Positions 3,713-17,097 of a DNA stretch of 64,000 bases are shown piece by piece. A model generated the notes under the pieces. It saw nothing but the letters and a program-made list of their open reading frames with translations, did no database searches and was not told where the DNA came from. Source of the stretch: Sphingosinicella sp. (GTDB lineage Bacteria > Pseudomonadota > Alphaproteobacteria > Sphingomonadales > Sphingomonadaceae); contig NZ_JACESP010000002.1 of the NCBI RefSeq assembly GCF_013911755.1, forward strand, positions 62,001-126,000, written 5' to 3'. Position numbers and translations under genes: made by a program. Every line of letters starts with the position of its first letter. Position 1 is the first letter of the stretch.

Positions 3713-4519
3713 ATGAACGACACAACACCCCCCGAGACGCCCGCAACGCCACCTGAAGCGACCACCGTTCCGACGCCGGCGCCGGCTGCGCCCGTGCCTG
3801 CCGAAGCCGCTGCGACCTACAAGTTTCCGCCTTCCATCCATCCGGACGGCAACAAGTTCGTGGTGCTTGCAGCGGTTCTAACCGGATTTTTCTGGTTCGT
3901 CGTCGATTGGGACATTCTCGGCTGGCTTTCGGCGGCTCTCACGTTCTGGACCTTCGCCTTCTTCCGCGACCCCCAGCGCGTTACGCCTGAAGGAGCGGGA
4001 CTCGTCGTTTCGCCTGCCGATGGCCTGGTGTCGCAGATCATGGAGGTGCCGGCACCGCGCGAGATTTCCGGCAGCGAGCGCGGCATTGGCGAGGGAACCT
4101 TCACGCGCGTCTCGATTTTCATGAGTGTGTTTGATGTGCATGTGAACCGCTCCCCGATCGCGGGTACGCTACGCGATATCGTCTATGTCCCCGGCAAGTT
4201 CGTGAACGCCGAGCTCGACAAGGCGAGCGAGCACAATGAGCGGCAGTATTTCGTTGTTGAAAGCGCCGATGGGCGCCGCATCGGCTTCACGCAGATTGCC
4301 GGCCTCGTCGCGCGGCGGATTATCAAATTTGTGAATACAGGTGAAAGCGTGGGCGCGGGCCAACGTGTCGGCCTCATCCGCTTCGGCAGCCGCGTCGACG
4401 TGTACCTGCCCGCAGGCACAGTTCCCGCCGTGGCGGTCGGACAGCGTGCAGTCGCCGGCGAAACCGTGATCGGCCGTCCGGGCGGCCCCGGTGATCGGCT
4501 GCGCGGCGTCCGCCAGTGA
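3713..4519 (+). CDS. psd: Phosphatidylserine decarboxylase
   Basis: A 268-residue membrane-bound enzyme that decarboxylates phosphatidylserine to phosphatidylethanolamine. Residues 1-35 are an unusual Pro/Ala/Thr-rich extension. A hydrophobic stretch follows (~47-83, [15 protein letters not shown] and neighbours), then the catalytic domain with the [13 protein letters not shown] motif. Self-cleavage to form the pyruvoyl group should occur at Gly-Ser in [12 protein letters not shown] near residue 223. This is the short, two-subunit class lacking the classical LGST. The gene overlaps pssA by four bases (GTGA), so the two enzymes of the pathway are translationally coupled, but in the order decarboxylase then synthase. 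Confidence 0.93.
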
Positions 4520-5370
4520 AGGTCGACCACGAGCGTCCGCGCAGGCTGAAACGGGTCATCCCGATTCGGGTGCTGATCCCAAACGCGATCACCATCGCCG
4601 CGCTCTGCGCCGGGCTCACCTCCGTGCGCCTCGCCATCGCCGGGGATTTTGACCGGGCGATCCTTGCGATTGTCGTGGCGGGCGTGCTCGACGGTATCGA
4701 CGGGCGCGTTGCACGTCTGCTGAAAGGCGCAAGCCGCTTCGGCGCCGAGCTTGATTCGCTGTCCGACGTCACGGCGTTCGGCGTCGCGCCCGCCCTCGTC
4801 ATCTATTTGTGGACGCTGGAGCAGCTTCCGGGCGTGGGCTGGATCGTAGCGCTCGCCCATGTCGTCTGTTGCGCGCTGCGGCTCGCGCGTTTCAACGCTA
4901 GCCTCGACGTCACCGACCAGCCGCACAAGCAGCACGGTTTCCTCACGGGCATTCCCGCGCCTGTGGGGGCGGGGCTGACGCTGAGCCCGATGTTTCTTTA
5001 TTACTGGCTGGAGCCGACCCGTTTCGCCCATTATTCGGAGGTCGGCACCGCTGCCACCGCCATCGTCGTCGGCACGGTCGCCTTCCTGATGGTCTCGAAC
5101 CTGCCGACCTATTCGTGGAAATCGGTGCGCATCCGTCCCGAATACCGCATCATGACACTCGTCGGCGTAGCGTTGTTTGCAGGGGCGTTGCTTTCGGCGC
5201 CGTATATGACGCTATCGCTGATATCCGTGGTCTATGCGGCGACGATCCCGATGGCGATCCTGTCGTACCGCAAGGTCAGGCGGCAAGCGGTAGCGGCTGC
5301 CATTCCCGATACCGCGGAGCCGGGCACGGGCGCGGCATCGGCTCAACAGCCGTCACCAGACGCTCCGTAA
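4516..5370 (+). CDS. pssA: CDP-diacylglycerol-serine O-phosphatidyltransferase
   Basis: A 284-residue integral-membrane CDP-alcohol phosphatidyltransferase that joins CDP-diacylglycerol and L-serine to make phosphatidylserine. The family signature is complete: DGRVAR (62-67), G76, D80 and D84. About seven hydrophobic helices follow. The GTG start overlaps the psd stop. The C-terminal ~30 residues are hydrophilic and rich in Ala, Pro and Thr. Its 3' end overlaps, antisense, the last 95 bases of a small minus-strand gene (5276-5500). Confidence 0.93.
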
Positions 5371-5500
5371 TCACGGCCTCGATTTCGCCGCGAAGCGCCC
5401 GCGCGATGGCCAGGCGCGCATCCGCGAACATGCGAGCAACCACGGCGAAGCTTACGAAAAGCAACAGACTTGAAAGCGTGGCAGAGAGCATGAAGGCCAT
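5276..5500 (-). CDS. Small single-span membrane protein behind tandem LexA boxes (candidate SOS protein)
   Basis: A 74-residue protein with no family I recognise. Residues ~4-23 (MLSATLSSLLLFVSFAVVAR region) form one hydrophobic span. A basic, probably cytoplasmic segment follows (RLAIARALRGEIEAV), then a Pro-rich tail with one Cys and one Trp. A good ribosome-binding site, AAGGGG, sits seven bases before the ATG. Two adjacent GTTC-N7-GTTC LexA boxes lie 16 to 49 bases upstream, with a consensus TTGACA -35 just beyond them. Size and topology recall the small SOS or damage-induced division inhibitors of Caulobacter (SidA, DidA), but there is no sequence argument for homology. The last 95 bases overlap pssA in antisense. 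Confidence 0.6.
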   Translation of the reverse strand: MAFMLSATLSSLLLFVSFAVVARMFADARLAIARALRGEIEAVITERLVTAVEPMPRPCPAPRYREWQPLPLAA

Positions 5501-5515
5501 GTTTGAACCCCTTTT

Positions 5516-5530
5516 GTTCTTCTCATGTTC
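5516..5530 (-). promoter_or_regulatory. LexA box 1 (GTTC-N7-GTTC)
   Basis: On the plus strand GTTC (5516-5519), seven bases, GTTC (5527-5530), matching the direct-repeat SOS box of Alphaproteobacteria exactly. It is the copy nearer the start codon of the small membrane protein gene. Confidence 0.75.
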
Positions 5531-5534
5531 GCTT

Positions 5535-5549
5535 GTTCCATATTTGTTC
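5535..5549 (-). promoter_or_regulatory. LexA box 2 (GTTC-N7-GTTC), tandem copy
   Basis: A second exact GTTC (5535-5538)-N7-GTTC (5546-5549), four bases from box 1. On the minus strand a perfect -35 hexamer TTGACA lies at 5561-5556, so this box falls between -35 and -10 and box 1 falls near the transcription start. Bound LexA should block the promoter firmly. Confidence 0.75.
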
Positions 5550-5639
5550 TCTCATTGTCAAGAGGTGGTGTTGTCGGCGCCGGATTGATTGGCGGCGGGG
5601 CTCCGGCTAGCCTCTGGCCGCTCTTTGGGAGGAGTCACC

Positions 5640-7271
5640 ATGTTAGGCGGAATGCAGGACTGGCCTTTGCTGGTCTGGAAACTCATTGACCACGCAGCGC
5701 TCAATCACGGCACGCGGGAGATCGTTACGGCGCTCGTCGAGGGCGGCGAAGCCCGTTCGAATTGGCGCGAGGTGCGCGACCGTGCGCTCAAGGTTGCGCA
5801 GGCGTTGAGCCGTCTGGGCATCCGGCTTGGCGATCGCGTAGCGACGCTCGCGTGGAACACGCAGCGCCATGTAGAGTGCTGGTACGGCATTTCGGGCATG
5901 GGCGCGGTCGCGCACACTGTGAACCCGCGCCTGTTCGAGGAGCAGATCGTCTACATTATCAACCATGCGGCCGACCGCGTGCTGTTCTTCGATCTCACCT
6001 TCGTGCCGATCGTGGAACGGATCGCTCCGAAGCTGAACACAGTCGAACACTATGTGCTGATGACTGGGCGCGAGCACCTGCCCGAGACAAGTATTCCGAA
6101 CCTTCTCGCCTATGAAGACCTGATCGCCGAGAGCGACGGCGATTTCGAATGGGCCAATATTGACGAGCAGACGCCCGCTGGGCTCTGCTACACCTCGGGG
6201 ACGACGGGCAATCCCAAGGGCGTGCTCTACACGCACCGCTCGAACGTACTTCACACGCTCGGCGGGAACTCGGCCGATGCGCTCGGCCTCACATCTTCGA
6301 CGTCGATCCTGCCGGTCGTGCCGATGTACCATGCGAACGCGTGGGGCGTGCCCTATGCCGCCGCTGCCGCGGGCGCGAAGCTGGTGATGGGCGGCGCGCA
6401 TTTCGACGCGCCGACGCTGCACGGCCTCATCCTTCGCGAGAAGGTGACGCTCACCGCTGCCGTTCCCACCGTCTGGCTTTCGATGCTCCAGCACCTCGAA
6501 AAGACTGGCGAGGGGCTCGGTGAACTCAAACGCGTCGTCATCGGCGGCTCCGCCGTGCCGCGCTCGATGATCGTCGATTTCAAGCAGAAGTATGACGTCA
6601 CGGTCTGCCACGCGTGGGGCATGACGGAGATGTCACCGCTCGGCACGCTCGGCTCGCTTTCCGCCGAGGCGCTCGAAAAGCCGCAGGAAGAGCAGTTCGA
6701 TATCCAGACCAAGCAGGGCCGCTCGATCTTCGGTGTCGAGATGAAGATCGTGGACGACAACGGCGACGAAATGCCCCGCGACGGCAAGGCGTTCGGGCAC
6801 CTGATGGTGCGCGGACCCTGGGTTGTGCGCGAATATTACGCAGGTGACGGCGGCCACGTACTCGATGCCGACGGCTGGTTCGACACGGGCGACGTCGCCA
6901 CGATCGACGCTTCCGGCTACATGCAGATCACCGACCGCGCGAAGGACGTGATCAAGTCCGGCGGCGAGTGGATCAGCTCGATCGAGCTCGAAAACGAGGC
7001 TGTCGGCCATGCCGCTGTGGCCGAGGCGGCGGTGATCGGCCTGCCGCACCCGAAGTGGGACGAGCGGCCGCTTCTCATCATCGTGCTGAAGGCGGGCACA
7101 AACCCGAGCAAGCAGGAGCTTCTCGATCACCTCGAAGGCCGCGTCGCCAAGTGGTGGATGCCCAACGACGTCGTCTTCGTGGAGGAAATCCCCCACACGG
7201 CAACGGGCAAGATCCAGAAGCTGACGCTGCGCCAGCAGTTCAAGGACTACCGCTTCCCCGACGCCGCCTAA
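5640..7271 (+). CDS. Long/medium-chain fatty-acid-CoA ligase (AMP-forming)
   Basis: A 543-residue member of the ANL adenylate-forming superfamily that activates a carboxylic acid, probably a fatty acid, to its CoA thioester. The AMP-binding P-loop [11 protein letters not shown] is at 184-194. The A5-like GMTEMSP motif, the A7 GWFDTGD motif and the A8/A10 region with [15 protein letters not shown] and the catalytic Lys in TGKIQK all follow. The start is the ATG preceded by TTGGGAGGAGTC, an excellent ribosome-binding site; an upstream in-frame start at 5589 is less likely. It resembles AlkK-type synthetases. Chain-length specificity cannot be read from the sequence. Its stop overlaps the next, convergent gene by four bases. 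Confidence 0.9.
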
Positions 7272-8332
7272 AACAGGGAAAACTGCCTGCCGCGCGGGCT
7301 GAACAGGTCCGTGCGCAGCGGGATGTCGCGGCGGGTGAGCCCGAAGCGGCGGCAGCCGGCCTGAAAACGTGCGCGGATCATTGCGGCGTAGGCGCCCTGC
7401 GGCTTGAAGCGCGCGTGGAAGCCGCCCTCGTTGTCCTTGCCGCCGCGCATTTCCCGTATGTGCGCCATCACCCGCGCGGCGCGGTCCGGCATGTTCGCGT
7501 CAAGCCACGCGCGAAAGATCGGCGAGACCTCGTGCGGCAGGCGGATGAGGATCATGGAGGCCATGCCCGCGCCTGCCTTTGCCGCCGCCTCCAGGATCGC
7601 CTCGATCTCGTGGTCGTTGATGGCCGGGATGAGTGGGGCGAGCGACACGGAAACGGGCACGTGGGCTTCGACGAGCGCCTTTACCGCCGCGATGCGCCGA
7701 TGCGGAGCGGTAGCGCGGGGCTCCAGCGTCTTCGCGGTCTCGGGATCAAGCGTGGTAACGGACACCATCACCGCGGCAAGGCCGCGTTCCGCCATAGGGG
7801 CGAGGATATCGATATCGCGCATCACGCGTGCGGACTTGGTGGTGATCATCACGGGGTGATTGGTTTCCGACAAGATTTCGAGTATTTTCCGCGTAGTGCC
7901 GTACTTTCCTTCCACAGGCTGGTAAGGGTCGGTGTTGGTGCCGAGTGCCATCGGCCGGCATTCATAGCGCGGATTCTCCAGCTCCTTCCTGAGCAGTTCG
8001 GGAATGCTCTTCTTCACCGTCAGCCTGCGCTCGAAATCGAGCCCGGGCGAAAGGCCGAGGTAGGCATGGGTCGGCCGCGCGAAGCAATAGACGCAGCCGT
8101 GCTCGCAGCCGCGATAGGCATTGATCGAGCGGTCGAAGGAGAGGTCGGGCGAGGTGTTGCGCGTGATCGCGGTGCGCGGTGTTTCATAGCTGATCTCGGT
8201 GCGGAACGATGGCAGGTCGTCCTCGGCCACTGAGTCCAGCCAATCGCCGTCCGCCTCACGCGCCAGATCGTCGAAGCGGGTGCTGGTTGTGTTCAGGGTT
8301 GCGCCGCGCGCGGCGTTGACGCGTCTCGACAT
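7268..8332 (-). CDS. SplB-like radical SAM protein (PA0069 family)
   Basis: A 354-residue radical S-adenosylmethionine protein. The [4Fe-4S] ligands are the cysteines of CEHGCVYC (C76, C80, C83), a CxxxCxxC motif preceded by SINAYRG. The C terminus is [10 protein letters not shown], a conserved ending in this family. The family is related to spore photoproduct lyase, which repairs UV-induced thymine dimers, but the reaction of this branch is not established. The ATG at 8332 was chosen because it lies just after the predicted promoter; an upstream in-frame extension would run through the LexA box. A LexA box upstream makes a DNA-damage role plausible by inference. Confidence 0.8.
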
Positions 8333-8338
8333 TGACAA

Positions 8339-8367
8339 ATTATGCGCGCAGGTTAAGAACAAATCAA
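8339..8367 (-). promoter_or_regulatory. Predicted promoter of the SplB-like gene, overlapped by a LexA box
   Basis: On the minus strand TTGATT (8367-8362) and CATAAT (8344-8339) are spaced by exactly 17 bases. The expected start point falls at about 8332, the A of the ATG, so the mRNA may be leaderless. The -35 hexamer lies inside the LexA box. Confidence 0.4.
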
Positions 8368-8371
8368 GAAC
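8357..8371. promoter_or_regulatory. LexA box (GAAC-N7-GAAC) between two divergent genes
   Basis: GAAC (8357-8360), seven bases, GAAC (8368-8371) exactly matches the alphaproteobacterial SOS box. It overlaps the -35 of the minus-strand SplB-like gene. It also lies 19 bases after a plus-strand TTGACA (8333-8338), where a -10 for the VOC gene would be expected, so both genes could be repressed. Confidence 0.65.
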
Positions 8372-8387
8372 AATGAGAGGAATGGAG

Positions 8388-8723
8388 ATGGCGCGCTTCA
8401 ACTACGTGGAACTGCCGACGCGCGATATCGCGAAGGCCAAACGCTTTTACGCGGGCGTGTTCGGATTCAAGATCAACGACTTCGGGCCGGATTATGCCGC
8501 GACGGTAACAGGCGACACGGACATCGGCTTCAACGGCACGGGCGAACACGTAACCGCGCATGTGCTGCCGGTGATAGAAGTCGACGACCTGGAAGCGGCA
8601 CGGGAAGCCGTGATTGCAGCAGGCGGTATAATCAGCCTCGACATTTTCCCGTTCCCCGGCGGTCGCCGCTTCCACTTCGTCGATCTCGAAGGGCACGAGC
8701 TTGCTGCGGTGAAGAGCGACTAG
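8388..8723 (+). CDS. VOC family (glyoxalase/bleomycin-resistance-like) protein
   Basis: A 111-residue protein of the vicinal-oxygen-chelate fold. It opens with the typical beta strand and helix [20 protein letters not shown] and ends with [13 protein letters not shown], where the Glu of GHELA is the usual metal ligand. The substrate is unknown. The ATG at 8388 follows GAGAGGAATGGAG; in-frame ATGs at 8373 and 8382 are alternatives. It is divergent from the SplB-like gene with a LexA box between them. The stop overlaps convergent moaB by four bases. Confidence 0.8.
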
Positions 8724-9247
8724 CGCTCCCGCAGCCTCGGCATCAGTTCCACGAAGTTGCAGGGGCGGTGGCGGCTGTCGAGCTGCGCTGCAAGAATGCC
8801 GTCCCAGCCATCCTTCACTGCGCCGGTCGAGCCGGGCAGGGCGAAGATGTAGGTACCGCGTGCAACGCCTGCTGTGGCGCGCGACTGCACGGTGGACGTG
8901 CCGATCGACTGGAAGCTGAGCCAGCGGAACAGTTCGCCGAAGCCGGGGATGTCCTTCTCGCAGACCTCGGCAAGTGCTTCGGGCGTGACGTCGCGGCCAG
9001 TGACGCCGGTGCCGCCCGTGGTGATCACGCAGTCGATCTCGGGGTCATCGATCCATGCCGCGAGCTGTTCGACGATAGTCCCGACGTCATCCTTCACGAT
9101 TTCGCGTGCCGCGAGCACGTGCCCGGCACCCTCCAGCCGCTCAACGAGCGTAGCCCCCGAACGATCGTCGGTGAGGCTGCGCGTGTCGGAGATGGTAAGC
9201 ACGGCGATACGGACCGGAAGGAAGGGCAGGCTTTCGTCAATCGGCAT
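8720..9247 (-). CDS. moaB: Molybdenum cofactor biosynthesis protein MoaB
   Basis: A 175-residue cytosolic protein of the MoaB/Mog family that binds molybdopterin and, in organisms using MoaB instead of Mog, is thought to adenylylate it before molybdenum insertion. The signature [11 protein letters not shown] is at residues 76-86. The ATG start overlaps the end of the upstream uracil-DNA glycosylase gene by 11 bases, so the two are co-transcribed. mobA, acting later in the same pathway, is elsewhere in the window. Confidence 0.9.
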
Positions 9248-10010
9248 CGAGCTTGGCTTTCACGGCGAGGAGATCGGCCCACGCCAGGCGCTTCGCTTCC
9301 GGCTGGCGCAGCAGGAATGCGGGGTGCAGCGTCGGCAGGATCGGAAAGTCCGTGCCTTCCACGGAAATCGTACGCCATTGGCCGCGCAGCCGCATGATCC
9401 CGGTGACGTCACCCGTCAGCGCGCGCGCCGCGCAGGCACCGAGCGCGACGATCACCTTCGGGCGCACGAGCGCGATGTGGCGGCGCACGAACGGCATCGT
9501 CGTCTCCACCTCCGCGGGGGTCGGCGTGCGATTGCCGGGCGGCCGCCAAAAGGTGACATTCGTGATGTAGGCGGTCGTGCGGTTGCGGCCGATCGCCGCG
9601 AGCATCCGGTCGAGAAGCTGGCCAGCAGGCCCCACGAAGGGCAAGCCCATGCGATCTTCCTGCGCGCCGGGCGCTTCACCGATTAGCATTAGGTCGGCCT
9701 CCGGATTGCCGTCCGCGAAGACCGTGCTGACGTTCCCGGTGCGCAGCGGGCAGCCTTCGAAGATTTCGACCGCGTGGCGCAGTTCGCCGATTGTCGTGGC
9801 CGTGACGGTCGCCGGCGGGCTTGCTGTGCCGGTACGTAGCACAAGCTCCGGCTCGGGTAAGGACGCGGGGATCTCGCGAATCGTGGCGCGCGGCGGCGGC
9901 GTGCGCCAGTCGCGCGGGGACGCGTCGACGAGCGTATCCACGCCCGCCTCGACCCACCAGCCGAGCGTGGCAAGCAGTTCGTCGCGCTCGCTCCCCTCCA
10001 ACACTCGCAT
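9237..10010 (-). CDS. Family-4-like uracil-DNA glycosylase without Fe-S cysteines
   Basis: A 257-residue uracil-DNA glycosylase relative that would remove uracil from DNA. Motif 1 is GEAPG (111-115), followed by [16 protein letters not shown]; motif 2 includes the HP of [10 protein letters not shown] (229-230). The ~80-residue N-terminal region is poorly conserved. Only two cysteines are present (C87 and C192). The other three positions where classical family 4 enzymes bind a [4Fe-4S] cluster appear replaced, for example by FW in [11 protein letters not shown]. The ATG at 10010 was preferred, with GAGG upstream, over a TTG at 10019. Confidence 0.8.
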
Positions 10011-10141
10011 GTTCCTCAACTCTTCAATCCGCTCTGGCCAAGCTCGGCCTTGCGACCTATCAAACCCGCCAAAACCATTATTGTGTCGTATGCCATAAGG
10101 CGCACGGCTAGAGTTGCAAACGGGGGAAAGGGAAGGAAGCC

Positions 10142-11794
10142 ATGAGCGAACGCGAATCGATGGCCTATGACGTCGTCATTGTCGGCGGCGGACCGGCGGG
10201 TCTCGCGTCGGCGATCCGGCTGAAGCAGCGCGCGCAGGCGGCAGGGCAGGAGATTTCGGTCTGCGTGCTCGAAAAGGGCTCGGAGATCGGCGCGCATATC
10301 CTTTCGGGCGCGGTGTTCGATCCGCGCGGCCTTGATGAGCTGCTGCCGGACTGGCGCGAGATGGACGGTCATCCGATGACGGTCGAGGTGTCGTCCAACC
10401 ATCACTGGATCCTGACGAAGAACCGAAAGTTCGACTTCCCGCATATCCTGCTGCCGCCGTTCATGGACAATGACGGCTGCTATACTGGCAGTCTCGGCAA
10501 CCTCTGCCGCTGGCTGGGGTCCCAAGCGGAAGCGCTCGGCGTTGAGATCTTCCCCGGCTTTCCGGCCTCGGAGGTTCTATTCGACGAGAATGGAGCTGTG
10601 CGCGGGGTGGCTACCGGCGATTTCGGCATCGCGCGCGACGGAAGCCACAAGCCGTCGTATCAGCCGGGCCTTGAACTTCATGCGAAGTATACGTTCTTTG
10701 CGGAGGGAGTACGCGGCCATCTGACCAAGCAGCTCAAGAAGCGCTTCGCGCTCGATGCGAGCAGTGAGCCGCAAGTCTATGGAATCGGTATAAAAGAGCT
10801 GTGGGATGTCGATCCCGATAACCACGATGAGGGCTGTGTCATCCATACGCAGGGCTGGCCGCTCGACGATGCCAACGGCGGCGGCTTCATCTATCATCAG
10901 GCGAACAACCAGATTGCGCTCGGCTTCGTGACGTGGCTCAATTACCGGAACCCGCATCTCTCGCCCTTCCATGAAATGCAGCGCTGGAAGACGCATCCTG
11001 CGATTGCGAAAATGCTCAAGGGCGCCCGCCGCGTATCTTACGGCGCGCGTGCGATTAACGATGGCGGCTACCAGGCTGTGCCGAAGCTGGTGTTCCCGGG
11101 CGGTGCGCTCGTCGGCTGCGCGGCGGGTTTCGTCAACGTGCCGCGCATCAAGGGCTCGCATACCGCGATCAAGACCGGGATCATGGCTGCGGACGCTGCA
11201 TTCGATGCCGTCACCGCCGGACGCGCGCAGGATGAACTTTCCGCCTACACCGTCGCTTACGACGAAAGCTGGGTGAAGAAGGAACTCTACATCGTCCGCA
11301 ACACGCTCCCCCTTGTTGAAAAATTCGGCAATTTCGTCGGTACGCTGCTTGCGGGCGCGAGCATGTGGCTCGAACAGTACGGCATCCATCTGCCGTTCAC
11401 GATGAAGCACCACCCCGACAACGAGCAGCTCTGGCGCAAGGAGCACTGCAAGAAGCCGGATTACCCCAAGCCTGATGGCGTGCTGACCTTCGATCGTCTC
11501 TCCTCGGTGTTCCTGTCGAACACCAACCACGAGGAGGACCAGCCGGTCCACCTGCAGCTCAAAGACCCGTCGATCCCGATTTCGTACAACCTGCCGCTCT
11601 ACGACGAGCCCGCGCAGCGTTACTGCCCGGCGGGCGTTTACGAGGTCGTGGGCGAGGAAGAGGGCAATCCGCGCTTCCAGATCAACGCGCAGAACTGCGT
11701 CCACTGCAAGACCTGCGACATCAAGGATCCGACGCAGAACATCAACTGGGTCACGCCCGAGGGCGGCGGCGGTCCCAATTATCCCAATATGTAG
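10142..11794 (+). CDS. Electron transfer flavoprotein-ubiquinone oxidoreductase
   Basis: A 550-residue inner-membrane flavoprotein that moves electrons from reduced ETF, fed by acyl-CoA dehydrogenases, to ubiquinone. The FAD-binding Rossmann motif GGGPAG is at 15-20. A ferredoxin-like cluster domain closes the protein, with C-x2-C-x2-C in NCVHCKTCDIKDP and the ending GGGGPNYPNM typical of ETF-QO. The 131-base gap before it separates it from the divergent glycosylase gene. The acyl-CoA dehydrogenase most likely to feed it from this window is ivd (28011-29174). Confidence 0.96.
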   Translation: MSERESMAYDVVIVGGGPAGLASAIRLKQRAQAAGQEISVCVLEKGSEIGAHILSGAVFDPRGLDELLPDWREMDGHPMTVEVSSNHHWILTKNRKFDFPHILLPPFMDNDGCYTGSLGNLCRWLGSQAEALGVEIFPGFPASEVLFDENGAVRGVATGDFGIARDGSHKPSYQPGLELHAKYTFFAEGVRGHLTKQLKKRFALDASSEPQVYGIGIKELWDVDPDNHDEGCVIHTQGWPLDDANGGGFIYHQANNQIALGFVTWLNYRNPHLSPFHEMQRWKTHPAIAKMLKGARRVSYGARAINDGGYQAVPKLVFPGGALVGCAAGFVNVPRIKGSHTAIKTGIMAADAAFDAVTAGRAQDELSAYTVAYDESWVKKELYIVRNTLPLVEKFGNFVGTLLAGASMWLEQYGIHLPFTMKHHPDNEQLWRKEHCKKPDYPKPDGVLTFDRLSSVFLSNTNHEEDQPVHLQLKDPSIPISYNLPLYDEPAQRYCPAGVYEVVGEEEGNPRFQINAQNCVHCKTCDIKDPTQNINWVTPEGGGGPNYPNM

Positions 11795-11804
11795 CGAGGT
11801 TTCC

Positions 11805-13478
11805 ATGCGTGCAGCCGTAGCCTTCCTCCTCGCATCCGCGCTCGCGGCGCCCTCGGCGCAGGCGACTGTGATGCCCGCGCAGGAGGCGGACTACGGCAGC
11901 TACGTGCAGGGCCACCTCGCGCTCGCGAACGGTGAACTCGGGCGGGCAGCCGACTATTTCGCGGGCGCGCTCACCTATGCGCCCGACGATCCGCAACTGC
12001 TGCGGCAGACCTTCGATCTTGCCATCGCGGCGGGCGACGAGGCGCTTGCCATCGGCGTCGGCGAGCGGCTGGCGCGGCAGGACCGCTTCGACAGCGGCGT
12101 TACGCTGCTGCTCGTCGCGAACGCGATCAAAACGCGGAAGTGGAACGATGCCCGCGAGGCGACGGCGCGGCTCACCGATGCGGGGTTCGGCAGCTTCATC
12201 GTGCCGATCATCGATGCGTGGATCGACGAGGCGCGCGGCAAAACTGCAGAGGGCATCCGCAAGCTCGACACGGAAAAACTCGAGGGGTTCGCGCGCACCT
12301 ATGTTCTCGAACACCGCGCACATCTGCTGTTCCGCGCGAAGCGCTACGCGGAAGCCGCTGAAATCTATGACCAACTGACCATGGATGACGGTGGCCGCAA
12401 CATCCGGATGCGGATCGCCGCAGCGCGCGCGCTGCAGGCCGAAAAGCAGCCTGAGGAGGCACTGAAGCGGCTGACGGAGTCGGCCGGGCACACCGATGTC
12501 GAGACGGCGAAGGCCGCGCTTGCGGCAGGCACGCCGATCGTCGGCATTCCTGCAAACGCCAGCGAGGGCGTCGCGCTGCTCGCGCTGCGCATGGCGGCGG
12601 ACCTTTCGCGCGAACGGCCGATTCCGGTCGCGCTCACGCTGGCGCGCATCGCCACGATGCTTGCCCCCGATCAGGCATCGGGCTGGCTGCTGACGACCGA
12701 ACTTCTCGCTGCTTCAGAGCGTTATGAAGCGGCGCTCGATGCCGTTCGCAAGGTGCGCGGCAGCGACGACGAGAAAGCGATGGCGCTGGGGCAGGAGGCG
12801 GCGATCCTCGCGCGGCTCGACCGCGAGCCCGAAGCGATGCAGCTGCTGGAGACCGCCGCGAACGCACCGGGCGCCCGCGCCGAGGATCTCGCGCGCTATG
12901 GTGACGCGCTGCAATCGGCGAAGCGTTTCCTCGATGCGGCCGCGGCCTACGACAAGGCGCTCACGCTCGGCCCGGCGGACCCGGCAATCGTCTGGCGACT
13001 GCATTTCCTGAAGGGTTCGGCGCTCGAACAGGGCGGCAAGTGGCCCGAGGCGGAGGCGTCGCTGCGCGAGGCGATCCGGCTACAACCTGCGGATGCGACA
13101 CTGCTGAACTATCTCGGCTACGCCCTCCTCGATCGCGGGCTTTCGAAGCCGGAAGCGCGCCTTCTCATCGAAAAGGCGCACAGCCTCGCGCCGGAAGACG
13201 GCTACATCACCGACTCGCTCGGCTGGGCGCAGTATCAGGCTGGCGAATATGCGGCTGCCGCCGCCACGCTGGAGCAGGCGGTCGCGGCGGTTGCCGACGA
13301 TCCCGTCATCACCGAACATCTTGGCGATGCCTACTGGATGGTGGGCCGCCGTATCGAGGCGCGCCACCGCTGGAAGGCCGCGCTCGACGCCGATCCGACG
13401 CCGGAGCGCAAGGGAACGCTCGAGACCAAGTACGACTACGGCCTCGATCTCGCGCTGAGGGATACCGCGAAGAAGTGA
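11805..13478 (+). CDS. Exported tetratricopeptide-repeat protein
   Basis: A 557-residue protein with a signal peptide (MRAAVAFLLASALAAPSAQA) and then TPR-type helical repeats throughout. The clearest are in the C-terminal third, for example ANYLGYALLDRG-like and DSLGWAQYQAGEYAAA segments. TPR arrays mediate protein-protein interaction; no catalytic motif is visible. It should be periplasmic or bound to a membrane. It starts 10 bases after the ETF-QO gene and overlaps ispE by four bases, so it is in the same transcription unit. The function is unknown. Confidence 0.85.
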   Translation: MRAAVAFLLASALAAPSAQATVMPAQEADYGSYVQGHLALANGELGRAADYFAGALTYAPDDPQLLRQTFDLAIAAGDEALAIGVGERLARQDRFDSGVTLLLVANAIKTRKWNDAREATARLTDAGFGSFIVPIIDAWIDEARGKTAEGIRKLDTEKLEGFARTYVLEHRAHLLFRAKRYAEAAEIYDQLTMDDGGRNIRMRIAAARALQAEKQPEEALKRLTESAGHTDVETAKAALAAGTPIVGIPANASEGVALLALRMAADLSRERPIPVALTLARIATMLAPDQASGWLLTTELLAASERYEAALDAVRKVRGSDDEKAMALGQEAAILARLDREPEAMQLLETAANAPGARAEDLARYGDALQSAKRFLDAAAAYDKALTLGPADPAIVWRLHFLKGSALEQGGKWPEAEASLREAIRLQPADATLLNYLGYALLDRGLSKPEARLLIEKAHSLAPEDGYITDSLGWAQYQAGEYAAAAATLEQAVAAVADDPVITEHLGDAYWMVGRRIEARHRWKAALDADPTPERKGTLETKYDYGLDLALRDTAKK

Positions 13479-14320
13479 CCGGCGAAGCGGCCGCCGAGAC
13501 CGGCTGGGCGAAGATCAACCTCGCGCTCCACGTGCGGCAGCGCCGCGCGGACGGCTATCACGACATCGAAGCCATCTTCGCATTCGCGGATTTCGGGGAC
13601 ATTCTCTCCGTGCGCGTGGCGGATGACGTCACGCTGGCCATTGGCGGCCCCTTCGGCGCGGGCCTGCCTGCGGACGAGAGCAACCTCGTGATGCGTGCAG
13701 CGCGCGCGCTTGCAAGCGCTTACGGGGTGAGGGCGGGCGCGGCGCTCACGCTCGACAAGCGGCTGCCGGTCGCCTCTGGTATCGGCGGGGGCTCGGCGGA
13801 CGCAGCGGCGGCGCTGCGCCTTCTCAACCGTTTTTGGGGAATCGATGCCGACGCGGCGGCACTGTGCGCGATTGCTGCCTCACTGGGTGCAGACGTGCCC
13901 GCGTGCGTCGGCAGCCGCACACAGCGCGGCGCCGGAGTAGGGGAGCAGCTTTGCACGCTCGCCGACGCCGACCTGCGCGGCAAAGCCGTATTGCTCGTCA
14001 ATCCTGGCGTACCGCTCGCGACCGGACCCGTGTTCGCGGCGTGGGACGGCATCGACCGGGGCGCGCTCGCAGACGGTCCGCCACTCGCTTCCGCGCTGGT
14101 GGGGCGCAATGATCTCGAAGCGCCCGCGGTTTCGCTGTGCCCGGTGATCGGCGCGGTTCTTGATGCGCTCGATCAGCGTGGTGCCGCGCTCGCGCGCATG
14201 TCAGGCTCTGGCGCGACCTGTTTCGCCCTGTTTGATGCCGCTGCGGACGCGGAAGCGGCCCGCGCTGCGATCGCGGCCGGGCATCCGGGCTGGTGGGCGG
14301 TGGCGGGACGACTGCGCTGA
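13475..14320 (+). CDS. ispE: 4-diphosphocytidyl-2-C-methyl-D-erythritol kinase
   Basis: A 281-residue cytosolic GHMP kinase of the MEP isoprenoid pathway that phosphorylates CDP-methylerythritol. The ATP-binding loop PVASGIGGGSADAAA and the C-terminal GHMP motif RMSGSGATCFALF are intact. The GTG start overlaps the stop of the TPR gene (GTGA) and places AKINLALHV at the expected N-terminal position; a longer frame extends upstream but lies inside the TPR gene. dxr, another MEP enzyme, is at 21031. Confidence 0.94.
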   Translation: MTGEAAAETGWAKINLALHVRQRRADGYHDIEAIFAFADFGDILSVRVADDVTLAIGGPFGAGLPADESNLVMRAARALASAYGVRAGAALTLDKRLPVASGIGGGSADAAAALRLLNRFWGIDADAAALCAIAASLGADVPACVGSRTQRGAGVGEQLCTLADADLRGKAVLLVNPGVPLATGPVFAAWDGIDRGALADGPPLASALVGRNDLEAPAVSLCPVIGAVLDALDQRGAALARMSGSGATCFALFDAAADAEAARAAIAAGHPGWWAVAGRLR

Positions 14321-14401
14321 CTGTCCCGAAATGGGGCTGACGGCACAGAATCATCAAAGTGACGTCATTCGCAAATCATTGATTTAAAACAATTGATGTT
14401 C

Positions 14402-14416
14402 TGGCACTGCCCTTGC
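14402..14416 (+). promoter_or_regulatory. Sigma-54 (-24/-12) promoter core
   Basis: TGGCAC (14402-14407), five bases, TTGC (14413-14416). The invariant GG and GC are exactly 10 bases apart, as RpoN promoters require. The predicted start is near 14428. AT-rich, partly palindromic DNA (AATCATTGATT at 14373-14383) lies immediately upstream and could bind IHF or an activator. The -12 element also belongs to a small perfect inverted repeat (CCTTGC-TGAA-GCAAGG, 14411-14426), so coincidence is not excluded. Confidence 0.6.
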
Positions 14417-14427
14417 TGAAGCAAGGC

Positions 14428-14552
14428 TGGCAGCGCGAGGATGTCTGTATGGACAGGCCCCGCAGCTTTCGGTCTGGGTCGATTGCCTGAGCTGACCCAC
14501 ACCGAGAAACTGACGGCGGAACGCATTGAGTTTGCGTCCGCCGTTTTTTTTT
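14428..14552 (+). ncRNA. Candidate sigma-54-dependent small RNA
   Basis: About 125 nucleotides between a strong sigma-54 promoter core and a strong intrinsic terminator, in a 287-base gap between ispE and the CHAD gene. No protein-like reading frame is contained in it. Internal structure is visible: TGTC-N6-GACA near the 5' end and TGGGTC...GACCCA in the middle. A 13-codon frame (ATG at 14449, TGA at 14488) follows GAGG at a good distance and might be a leader or micropeptide. I do not recognise an Rfam family. The ntrBC, ntrYX and hfq genes in the same window make nitrogen control plausible. Confidence 0.5.
14513..14552 (+). terminator. Strong Rho-independent terminator
   Basis: ACGGCGGAACGCA pairs with TGCGTCCGCCGT (12 pairs, one bulged A) around a seven-base loop, followed by nine T. 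It faces the plus strand and closes the candidate small RNA unit. It lies 55 bases before the CHAD gene. Confidence 0.85.
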
Positions 14553-14607
14553 GTGCGCCAAGCGCCTATAGCAGCGTGCTGAAACAAGGGCGGAGCGACA
14601 TCGACCT

Positions 14608-15474
14608 ATGGCCTATCGTTTCGCGCCGGGCGACGCTGGCATCGAAGCCGCGCTGCGCCGGATCGCGGCCGAGCAGCTTGACGGCGCGCTTGCGGCGCTG
14701 GCGAGTGCGGACGCTGATCTTGAACGCAGCGTCCACGGCGTCCGCACGGCAACCAAGCGGATACGCGCGCTGCTGCGGCTGCTGCGCGCGGTCTTTCCCG
14801 GCTATTCCGAAGCCAACGCGGCGCTACGCACGCTCGCAGCAAGGCTTGCCGACGTGCGCGAGGCGCAGGTGCTGCTCGCGACGTTCGACAGCGTTGCGGG
14901 CGAAAGCGGCGGCAAGACGCTCGCCGCCTTTCGCACCTCGCTGGAGGCGGATGAGCAAACGGCGGCTCTGCGCGTGCGCGGCGCTGTGCTTGAGGATGCG
15001 CGCGCACGGCTCCTCGCGCTGCGGGCGGCGTCCGGTGACTGGCGGCTCGAACGCGACGGTTTCGGCGCGCTTCGCAAGGGTTTGCGGCGGACCTGCCGCA
15101 AGGCGACGGCACTGATGGCCGAGGCGGCGGGCGGCGATATCGAAGCCTTCCACGAGTGGCGCAAGCACATCAAGGACCACGGCTTTCAGGTGCGCCTGCT
15201 CCACGACATCGATTCAGGCCTCGCCGCGCGTGGCGAGATGCTGGGCCGGCTCGGCGATCTTCTTGGCGAACAGCACGATCTCTGCGCGCTCGAGGCGCGG
15301 CTCCACGACCGCAAGGAGAAGGCGCTCAGGCGTCTCGAAAAGGCGGCCATCGAACGACGGCAGTCGCTCGAAAAAGAGGCGCTGAAGCTCGGCGCCGTCC
15401 TGTTCGAAGAACCCTGCAAGGCCCGCCTCCGCCGCTGGGAGCGCGCGTGGGACGACTGGCGCGACGCCGGCTGA
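14608..15474 (+). CDS. CHAD domain protein
   Basis: A 288-residue, all-helical protein rich in conserved His, Arg and Lys, matching the CHAD family. Two repeats are visible: one begins near residue 40 (ERSVHGVRTATKRIRALLRLL) and a second near residue 175 (EAFHEWRKHIKDHGFQVRLL). CHAD domains bind polyphosphate through their basic surface and often accompany CYTH domains. Here the CYTH partner is the next gene, overlapping by one base (TGATG), so the pair looks like a split form of the common CYTH-CHAD fusion. Confidence 0.88.
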   Translation: MAYRFAPGDAGIEAALRRIAAEQLDGALAALASADADLERSVHGVRTATKRIRALLRLLRAVFPGYSEANAALRTLAARLADVREAQVLLATFDSVAGESGGKTLAAFRTSLEADEQTAALRVRGAVLEDARARLLALRAASGDWRLERDGFGALRKGLRRTCRKATALMAEAAGGDIEAFHEWRKHIKDHGFQVRLLHDIDSGLAARGEMLGRLGDLLGEQHDLCALEARLHDRKEKALRRLEKAAIERRQSLEKEALKLGAVLFEEPCKARLRRWERAWDDWRDAG

Positions 15475-15947
15475 TGGGGACGGAGATCGAACGCAAGTTC
15501 CTGGTGACGGGAGACGGCTGGCGCGCGAACGTCGTGCGCAGCCGGGCGATGGCGCAGGCCTATATCGCGCGCGGCGAGCACGCTTCAGTGCGCGTTCGGG
15601 TCATCGATGATGCGGGCGGCAGGCTCACCATCAAGGGCCGGGTCTCCGGCCTTTCGCGTGACGAGTTCGAATATGATGTGCCGCTCGAAGATGCGCGCGC
15701 GCTGATCGCGCTGCGCAGCGGGCGGCTGCTCGCCAAACGGCGATATGACGTCATCGAGGATGGGAGGCTGTGGGAAGTCGATGTTTTCGAAGGCGAGTTT
15801 TCAGGCCTCGTGATCGCGGAATGCGAACTGGAGAACGAGGATGAGGCCGTGATCCGCCCGGCGTGGCTGGGCCGCGAAGTGACCGCCGACCCGCGCTACT
15901 ACAACGCGGCCCTCGCCGTGCATGGACCTCCGCCTCCGGGTCAGTAA
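15474..15947 (+). CDS. CYTH domain protein (inorganic triphosphatase-like)
   Basis: A 157-residue triphosphate-tunnel-metalloenzyme domain protein. It opens with EIERKF (residues 4-9), the ExExK signature, and contains the expected basic and acidic strands (SVRVRV, LTIKGR, EVDVFEGEFSGLVIAECEL). Proteins of this group hydrolyse inorganic triphosphate or act on related substrates. The ATG at 15474 overlaps the CHAD stop. Co-translation with CHAD suggests a shared role in polyphosphate or triphosphate handling, which is inference. Confidence 0.9.
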   Translation: MGTEIERKFLVTGDGWRANVVRSRAMAQAYIARGEHASVRVRVIDDAGGRLTIKGRVSGLSRDEFEYDVPLEDARALIALRSGRLLAKRRYDVIEDGRLWEVDVFEGEFSGLVIAECELENEDEAVIRPAWLGREVTADPRYYNAALAVHGPPPPGQ

Positions 15948-16153
15948 ATGGTGAACACCGGTTTGCTGCGGCGTGCGGACGATGCTTTCGGCGCTTCGAG
16001 GGGACAGGCGCGTGTTCCGGTGTTGATCTGAATCGTTGGTGCGCCGCCGCTGAACAGTACGAACACACTGTTTCGGTCGGCCCGCCCCGTCTCGGGAGCC
16101 GTCGACCCCGCCGCCGTGGCGGCCATGCCGAGAATGAACGCGGACTTGAGCAT
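15941..16153 (-). CDS. Small hypothetical protein, possibly exported
   Basis: A 70-residue frame of unknown function. Translation support is the strong ribosome-binding site GGGAGG seven bases before the ATG. Residues 1-20 (MLKSAFILGMAATAAGSTAP) could be a weak signal peptide. The remainder is polar with FVLFSGGAPTIQIN and a basic end. It is convergent with the CYTH gene (seven-base overlap) and divergent from rpsB. No homology is recognised. Confidence 0.45.
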   Translation of the reverse strand: MLKSAFILGMAATAAGSTAPETGRADRNSVFVLFSGGAPTIQINTGTRACPLEAPKASSARRSKPVFTIY

Positions 16154-16228
16154 GTCGTCCTCCCAAGACGATCTTTGCGCCTGATACGCAATACGCCGCT
16201 TTCGTCCCCCGGACAATCCGGCGCCCCC

Positions 16229-16257
16229 TTGCATTTGCCGCCGCGCGGCGCTAAAGG
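16229..16257 (+). promoter_or_regulatory. Predicted promoter of the rpsB operon
   Basis: TTGCAT (16229-16234) and TAAAGG (16252-16257) are spaced by 17 bases and lie about 90 bases upstream of the rpsB ATG. The 5' leader would be about 85 bases, long enough for autoregulation by S2, though no specific structure was proven. Confidence 0.35.
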
Positions 16258-16347
16258 CCGCCGCATTCCACAGATGCGGGAACATATCCGGTGGGCAGCC
16301 TGCTGCCTTCCTCCTGCATCGAGGTCAAACCGGAAGGAGAAACGATT

Positions 16348-17097
16348 ATGGCGGCACCCGTCGTCACGATGGCGCAGCTTTTGGAAGCTGGCGCCCACTT
16401 TGGTCACCAGACGCACCGTTGGAACCCGAAGATGAAGCCTTACATCTTCGGTGACCGCAATGGCGTGCACATCATCGATCTGTCGCAGTCCGTCCCGCAG
16501 TTCGCGCGTGCGCTCGAATTCGTCCGCGCCACGGTTGCGGCCGGCGGCAAGGTACTGTTCGTCGGCACCAAGCGCCAGGCGCAGGAGCCGATCGCGGAGG
16601 CCGCGCGCCGTTCGCGTCAGCACTTCGTGAACCACCGCTGGCTGGGCGGTATGCTCACCAACTGGAAGACGATCTCGCAGTCGATCCGCAAGTTCAAGCA
16701 GCTCGAAGAGCAGCTTGCCGGCGACACGCACGGCCTCACCAAGAAGGAAGTGCTGAAGATGACGCGCGAGCGCGACAAGTTCGAAGCCTCGCTTGGCGGT
16801 ATCCGCGACATGGGCGGCCTGCCCGACGTCATGTTCGTAATCGACACGAACAAGGAAGATCTCGCCGTGAAGGAAGCCAACGTGCTTGGCATCCCCGTGA
16901 TCGCGATCCTCGACACGAACAGCGATCCGAGCGGAATCGCGTTCCCGATCCCGGGCAACGACGACGCCTCGCGCGCCATCCGCCTTTACTGCGACGCGAT
17001 TGCGGATGCGGTTCTCGGCGGCAACCAGAACCGTCAGCGCGATCTGGGCGCGGACCTCGGCGCAGCGGCCGAGCCGCAGGCCGAAGTCGCCGCCTGA
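16348..17097 (+). CDS. rpsB: 30S ribosomal protein S2
   Basis: A 249-residue small-subunit ribosomal protein. The conserved N-terminal region ([20 protein letters not shown]) and the [11 protein letters not shown] and [13 protein letters not shown] segments are intact. The ATG follows GGAAGGAGA; an upstream in-frame start at 16291 is not needed. It heads a long cluster of translation, isoprenoid and envelope genes running to fabZ. Confidence 0.97.

Follow-up and report, generated by a model that had tools for sequence, protein, structure and literature searches.

A small membrane protein gene behind two LexA boxes

The window, the whole stretch of 64,000 nucleotides of Sphingosinicella sp. 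DNA analyzed here, carries on its minus strand a small gene, P0001, with two LexA boxes ahead of it. Coordinates of the gene, its promoter elements and its neighbors are collected in Table 1. The 3' end of pssA and the final 95 bases of the small gene overlap in antisense orientation. The preliminary description of this DNA had noted tandem GTTC-N7-GTTC boxes with a gap of four bases, a consensus TTGACA -35 element beyond them, and a 74-codon gene with a good ribosome-binding site, and all of these are present in the sequence. It had also assigned the product a single N-terminal transmembrane span, with which both a Kyte-Doolittle maximum of 2.2 at residues 5-21 and the predicted structure (see below) agree.

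Table 1. Features of the small-gene locus and its neighbors, in window coordinates
Feature	Coordinates	Strand	Remarks
Small one-span membrane protein gene P0001, 74 aa	5276..5500	-	ATG at 5500-5498
LexA box adjoining -35, GTTCCATATTTGTTC	5535..5549	-	Exact match; fills the -35/-10 spacer like the family consensus
Second LexA box, GTTCTTCTCATGTTC	5516..5530	-	Exact match; in the promoter-to-ribosome-binding-site interval
-35 element TTGACA	5556..5561	-	Read in the sequence
Ribosome-binding site AAAAGGGG	5508..5515	-	7 bases 5' of the ATG; by eye
Ala-Ala-stop (two final codons and stop)	5276..5284	-	Possible ssrA-like degradation signal
pssA, phosphatidylserine synthase	4516..5370	+	TIGR00473, 106.5 bits against a cut-off of 107; conserved neighbor
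Long-chain acyl-CoA ligase	5640..7271	+	NF004674, 873.9 bits; divergent neighbor in the window's genus, outside the unit
rpsB	16348..17097	+	Divergent neighbor in most other members found (L041-L120, L161-L240)

Exact single boxes are unremarkable in this DNA, with four in the window against a mean of 1.83 in shuffled sequence, and 14 of 100 shuffles reaching four. The tandem arrangement with its exact four-base spacing occurs once in the whole 3.63-Mb genome, and its reversed-pattern control not at all. The lexA gene of the same genome is preceded by a box of its own, GTTCCCCATTCGTTC, which starts 71 bases ahead of the match to the DNA-binding domain. A sigma-70 scan of positions 5200-5750 returned no promoter-like site, presumably because the -10 is poor; a textbook -10 is absent from the region.

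Conservation within the genus

A search for orthologues, and for conservation of the double box, had been proposed as a check on the gene, the reading to be given up if relatives lacked the frame or the boxes. The gene and both boxes were found in all six genus genomes examined, the other five proteins being 81-91% identical to that of the window. The box on the -35 side is identical in all six; the second is likewise exact in all six, with its spacer altered in one. Across the 15 pairs formed by these six orthologues dN/dS is 0.22, with values of 0.19 for codons 1-42, outside the pssA overlap, and 0.27 for codons 44-74, antisense to pssA. These ratios mark purifying selection on the encoded protein.

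A family defined by position in the Sphingomonadaceae

Comparison of sequences and gene order indicates that the small gene is a member of a fast-evolving family found in most Sphingomonadaceae sampled. In the family layout, pssA lies tail-to-tail with the gene for a one-span protein, and a LexA box sits within that gene's promoter. A search with the window protein alone matched 5 of 199 Sphingomonadaceae genomes, two of them weakly, and one of the weak matches, L009, has no exact box at the locus. A reading of the gene as confined to its genus was dropped when the tandem-box pattern, then rpsB, and then the position of pssA revealed the wider family.

The tandem-box pattern occurs in 35 of the 199 genomes, and its reversed control in 4. 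Thirty tandem-box loci outside the genus were read. Eighteen have a small ORF with an N-terminal span on the opposite strand, behind the boxes; these ORFs adjoin rpsB or, in three g21 loci, the ligase. The remaining 12 loci include recA and likely chance matches.

Regions upstream of rpsB were read next, which removed the boxes as a criterion for choosing loci. In the anonymous set, 196 genomes with rpsB yielded 80 regions (69 taken one per genus plus 11 others), of which 79 were usable. An exact box lies within 650 bases of rpsB in 61 of the 79, against 4 of 79 for the reversed pattern. Both a box and a divergent span protein were found in 58 of the 79, while 18 lack such an ORF and 3 have the ORF without a box. 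With one genome per genus (L041-L109), 51 of 68 usable rpsB regions have the exact box and the divergent span protein. A named set, which shares species with the anonymous one, was made from the best 80 of 584 loci, 78 of them usable, and includes Sphingomonas, Sphingobium, Novosphingobium, Sphingopyxis, Erythrobacter, Porphyrobacter and Tsuneonella. Its counts, for this best 80 of 584, are 63 of 78 for the box, 2 of 78 for the reversed pattern, and 54 of 78 for box and protein together. The combined filter for box and ORF was thus failed by 21 of the 79 anonymous regions and by 24 of the 78 named regions drawn from the best 80 of 584. Removal of one identical sequence from 112 proteins left the set of 111 members described below.

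Loci were also defined by rpsB and pssA with boxes left out as a criterion, giving 160 anchored on rpsB and 127 with a usable pssA end. The gene was detected in 121 of these 127, at a threshold of 14.2 bits that was fixed after 14.1 bits was known as the score of the top non-member frame. An exact box lies within 190 bases in 115 of the 121 (reversed control, 2); with one mismatch allowed, the count is 119 of 121 (reversed control, 23). Six pssA loci have no span ORF by the filters used: L105, L168, L183, L187, L234 and L235. Five of the six have exact boxes upstream of rpsB, and the sixth, L187, has a family-like frame of 23.1 bits. Copies that have diverged, or that begin at a different start, may be present at these loci.

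For the outgroup, 40 genomes representing 39 alphaproteobacterial families were taken, for size and completeness, from 187 genomes outside the Sphingomonadaceae. None of the 40 has the combination of box and ORF at rpsB; in one genome a box stands by itself close to the rpsB start.

If the ORF had merely arisen by chance opposite pssA, and its boxes likewise, the near-chance frequency of single boxes in the window would be as expected. That account is refuted by the conservation, the reversed-pattern controls, the dN/dS values and the synteny, and the probability left to it is negligible.

Orthology of the window gene

The small gene is tail-to-tail with pssA in all 53 distinct named members, and likewise in the window. 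The named members have rpsB as their divergent neighbor; in the window's genus and in g21 that place is taken by the acyl-CoA ligase, which also adjoins the gene in L036-L038. In the window rpsB lies about 11 kb from the small gene. A relocation of the gene away from rpsB was considered and then replaced by a description with pssA as the constant neighbor and about 11 kb of genes intervening in the window.

A hidden Markov model of the 111 members, which had been selected by their boxes, was built without the window protein, and it scored that protein at 22.4 bits and three genus relatives at 24-27 bits. On 159 decoy frames the same model gave 13 scores above that of the window protein, the next best being 14.1 bits. 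By arithmetic from frame numbers, these 13 frames, from 12 loci, map 0.2-2.6 kb upstream of rpsB and are read from the opposite strand; because they are upstream of rpsB, in loci previously scored as lacking the gene, they were counted as members post hoc. The scores of three g21 proteins encoded at the pssA/ligase site, 10.5-12.9 bits, fall inside the range of unrelated frames, and these proteins are linked to the family through position only. The window protein shares 15-35% identity with members beyond its genus.

Profile A2, of 42 rows, matched 143 of 199 Sphingomonadaceae genomes at E<=0.01 (76 of 96 genera) and 99 of 199 at E<=1e-5, leaving 56 of 199 unmatched; since it includes the window protein and many members, matches within the family are partly so by construction. 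Outside the family it matched 11 of 187 genomes at E<=0.01 and none of 187 at E<=1e-5, so its weak matches are unreliable. The profile also has false negatives: the gene of G046, for example, was located in L024.

In L192 (Novosphingobium sp. HII-3), two tandem family-like span ORFs occur upstream of rpsB, at about 5181 and 5610 (places by arithmetic), with scores of 24.2 and 26.5 bits. This may represent a duplication.

The family promoter and LexA control

Among the 111 members, boxes read GAAC-N7-GAAC on the gene strand in 136 cases against 3 in the other orientation. TTGAC occurs near the box on the gene strand in 100 of the 111, on the other strand in 5, and as reversed letters in 12, and it mostly starts 9-12 bases ahead of the box. 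The consensus of 95 promoters is cGCTTgaca-N4-GGAACAAA-N4-GAACATA, so LexA would cover the spacer between -35 and -10 and the -10 itself. Two or three boxes are found in 22 of the 111 members. A conserved GTTC-N7-GTTC operator overlapping the promoter, the mark of an alphaproteobacterial LexA regulon, is present in the genus and in the family. By sequence, the window promoter fits the family consensus, with an extra box before the ribosome-binding site; its distance from box to start is 15 bases, against a family median of 93.

Boxes between divergent genes could instead serve the other gene, rpsB or, in the window, the ligase, which starts at 5640, with 90 bases between that start and the nearer box. 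That neighbor varies, however, while box and small gene remain paired; of the 111 members, 100 have the -35 element on the small-gene strand and 5 on the other, and in the window the nearer box is just 15 bases from the start of the small gene. We consider control of the divergent gene in place of the small one very improbable.

Repression by LexA, as the preliminary description had proposed for this gene, thus gains strong comparative support from the conserved boxes, their orientation, and the geometry of the -35 element. LexA control of the small gene is very likely on this evidence, and we infer LexA binding and induction of the gene. The paired claim, that the gene is real and is under LexA control, appears close to certain from the sequence comparisons.

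Features of the encoded protein

Members are 63-101 residues long (median 79, 111 members), with one span near the N-terminus. Lys or Arg precedes the span in 1 of the 111; behind the span these residues average 10.4 per protein, with a net charge of +7. Under the positive-inside rule this distribution places the tail inside, and the Arg-rich tail is predicted to be cytoplasmic; a periplasmic tail is a possible alternative topology. AlphaFold2, run with the window protein and 20 relatives, returned helices at residues 2-36 and 40-50 with a mean pLDDT of 78.5 and a pTM of 0.43. Block values of pLDDT are 93, 98 and 92 over residues 1-30, then 79, then 56-72.

The window protein matched no family in the libraries searched, and no Pfam model at E<=10. 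For 42 members, PHROGs and PADLOC gave no match, and Pfam and NCBIfam gave two weak single-member matches each, those in Pfam being one to DUF6187 and one to DUF3969. The sole match from a PDB search was PscE, at an E-value of 0.034.

An Ala-Ala C-terminus selected within the pssA overlap

The family shows a strong preference at its C-terminus. Ala-Ala ends 98 of the 111 members, and Ala is the last residue in 107; when each genus contributes a single genome, the Ala-Ala count is 47 of 51. The composition of the tails predicts 4.4. The background from named loci is 24 of 505 long open frames, a set left by composition filtering of 1352 stop-to-stop frames of at least 250 codons, some of which are possibly not genes.

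Overlap with pssA in antisense was found for 104 of 110 members, 102 of them in one frame, and it constrains the tail. Because the overlap is so general, Ala-Ala might be the shadow of a pssA motif, Val/Ile-Arg/Lys-Arg. In the main overlap frame the second base of an Ala codon faces the third base of a pssA codon. Where a pssA CGN codon faces the penultimate Ala, N is G in 77 of 82 cases, compared with a G frequency of 34% at the third base of CGN codons in the remainder of those genes; taking a single genome from each genus, the count is 39 of 41. The pssA Arg facing the last residue is AGG in 50 of 52 cases against 47 of 1538 Arg codons elsewhere, a count to be read with the caveat that the first A of this AGG is also required by the stop codon of the small gene. 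Six members, five of them from Sphingobium, lack the overlap; they retain the gene and the box, and five of the six end in Ala-Ala. The codon-bias tests did not uphold the idea of a mere shadow. Together with the non-overlapping members, the codon bias argues that the two alanines are selected as protein, even where they are encoded antisense to pssA. Such selection on the Ala-Ala end of this family, within the pssA overlap, is new here, and it shows clearly how a protein end of just two residues can be under selection inside an antisense overlap.

The same arrangement invites the suggestion that pssA is what the small gene controls. A transcript made after damage would reach the 3' end of pssA and, through antisense pairing or collision, lower the synthesis of phosphatidylserine and PE, or else the protein would bind PssA. 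Tail-to-tail placement in 53 of 53 named members and the 3' overlap in 104 of 110 are what such control would lead one to expect. Purifying selection on the protein frame, however, and selection of Ala-Ala against the codon preference of pssA both point to the protein, and the six members without overlap (five Sphingobium) keep the gene and its box all the same. Control of pssA is therefore an improbable function for the family.

The genome's own tmRNA (ssrA) tag is ANDNEAFAIAA. Its last residues, AIAA, are much like the Ala-Ala with which the family proteins finish, except that the latter is encoded in the gene whereas the tag is added in trans. Ends of this kind are read by ClpXP and ClpAP in the cytoplasm or by Prc/CtpA outside it (for CtpA, PMC6051672). 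By this likeness, we infer that Ala-Ala serves as a degradation signal read by a protease.

Comparison with known SOS division inhibitors

Excerpts of the cited papers describe several small membrane proteins that invite comparison. SidA of Caulobacter crescentus, 29 aa, is controlled by LexA, resides in the inner membrane, binds FtsW and blocks division (PMC4211646); loss of lexA in Caulobacter leads to filaments via SidA (PMC12700426). The present family is likewise alphaproteobacterial, predicted to be under LexA control, and composed of very small membrane proteins. It differs in size, its 74 aa in the window and 63-101 aa among 111 members lying well above the 29 aa of SidA, and in its predicted cytoplasmic Arg-rich tail. 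To our knowledge, SidA has neither an Arg-rich tail nor an Ala-Ala end. It is reasonable, as the preliminary description suggested, to see in the small gene a candidate analogue of SidA, whether unrelated or diverged.

DidA, also of Caulobacter crescentus, is a one-span protein of 71 aa, a division inhibitor induced by damage independently of SOS, via DriD, and acting on FtsN (PMC4211646, in excerpt). The family shares with it small size and a single span. Where DidA is SOS-independent, however, 115 of 121 family loci have an exact LexA box.

In Bacillus, FtsW is bound by YneA, which is cleared by two proteases, one of them CtpA; for ChiZ of Mycobacterium, SosA of Staphylococcus, and SidA, a target in FtsW is predicted with low confidence (PMC13396833 and PMC6051672, excerpts). 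YneA, ChiZ and SosA are SOS-induced small membrane division inhibitors, a description that the family resembles as far as sequence and prediction reach. YneA and ChiZ have a LysM domain, whereas the window protein has no Pfam family and hence no LysM match, and the family differs from all three in having a tail predicted to lie inside. A LexA-boxed small protein with one N-terminal span, the mark of the SidA/YneA-type class, is what sequence and prediction give for this family. SulA (PF03846) had no match above cut-off in 99 Sphingomonadaceae genomes, with one weak match at 3.6e-4, and P0001 itself matched no Pfam model. This absence of SulA above cut-off, taken with the small, late-acting membrane inhibitors found elsewhere, favors reading the small protein as a brake on division.

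TisB is described as a membrane toxin that induces dormancy. It is controlled by LexA. A toxin of the TisB/Hok type, in which a cationic one-span protein lowers membrane potential and brings on dormancy with no specific division target, would likewise be small, with a hydrophobic helix, an Arg-rich tail (here a mean of 10.4 Lys/Arg after the span) and LexA boxes. However, a length of 63-101 aa, a tail that is both long and variable, and selection for Ala-Ala at the C-terminus are more in keeping with a protein that is regulated and quickly cleared than with a short pore-forming peptide. We regard a toxin as unlikely, while granting it a real share of the probability.

Proposed function

The one-span protein, which has LexA boxes, is probably short-lived and occurs in most sphingomonads sampled, is best read as their SOS division brake. 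LexA would repress the gene from the box between -35 and -10, with the window's second box further towards the ribosome-binding site, and given this placement expression without induction should be very low. DNA damage would bring RecA-driven cleavage of LexA and a strong switch-on of the small gene. The product would insert as a single span, N-terminus out and Arg-rich tail inside, and its membrane helix may dock on the late division complex (FtsW/FtsI/FtsN), so that cell division is delayed as by SidA and YneA. The Ala-Ala end would probably mark it for early removal by ClpXP/ClpAP or, should the tail be periplasmic, by a protease of the Prc/CtpA type, and proteolysis of the product would let division resume once SOS ends.

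Analogy with SidA, YneA and SosA makes inhibition of division the preferred, though unproven, mechanism, and the late divisome as its target is conjecture drawn from the same kind of analogy. Its chief competitors are a toxin of the TisB kind and control of pssA. The model as a whole, a LexA-controlled division brake with a proteolytic off-switch, we judge moderately probable. A fuller proposal, which we put forward tentatively and at somewhat under an even chance, would see a sphingomonad-specific SOS checkpoint family: a one-span protein, repressed by LexA and with its Arg-rich tail inside, that blocks the divisome and carries a built-in mimic of the tmRNA tag for removal by ClpXP/ClpAP soon after repair. 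Its signal would be written antisense through the end of pssA in most members, with two alanines kept while nearly all other residues changed.

Few lineages have known SOS division inhibitors, and these proteins have little sequence in common. Gene position and promoter make the present family traceable across the greater part of a large bacterial family, and brake, target and off-switch are therefore testable in harmless, genetically tractable species. Among the matches listed from a search of open-licence literature, nothing concerned the small gene or any sphingomonad SOS division inhibitor. A transcriptome report on Sphingopyxis granuli, in the excerpts available, names the SOS genes lexA, recA, dinG and imuAB-dnaE2 and leaves the small gene unnamed (PMC6472365).

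Other observations in the window

Besides the ligase and a radical SAM protein, the region 5640-16347 encodes, as named by eye, moaB-like and uracil-DNA glycosylase-like proteins, ETF-QO, a TPR protein, ispE, and CHAD and CYTH proteins. Upstream of rpsB, at about 15960-16160 on the minus strand, a small frame looks secretory by eye; no exact LexA box occurs there. A further LexA box, GTTCTTGATTTGTTC, lies at 8357-8371 on the minus strand, 24 bases before the chosen start of a gene at 7268-8332 (minus strand) for a PA0069-family radical SAM protein (NF033668, 462 bits). This box is conserved in all four genus relatives compared, and the radical SAM gene is, by its sequence context, likely a further SOS gene.
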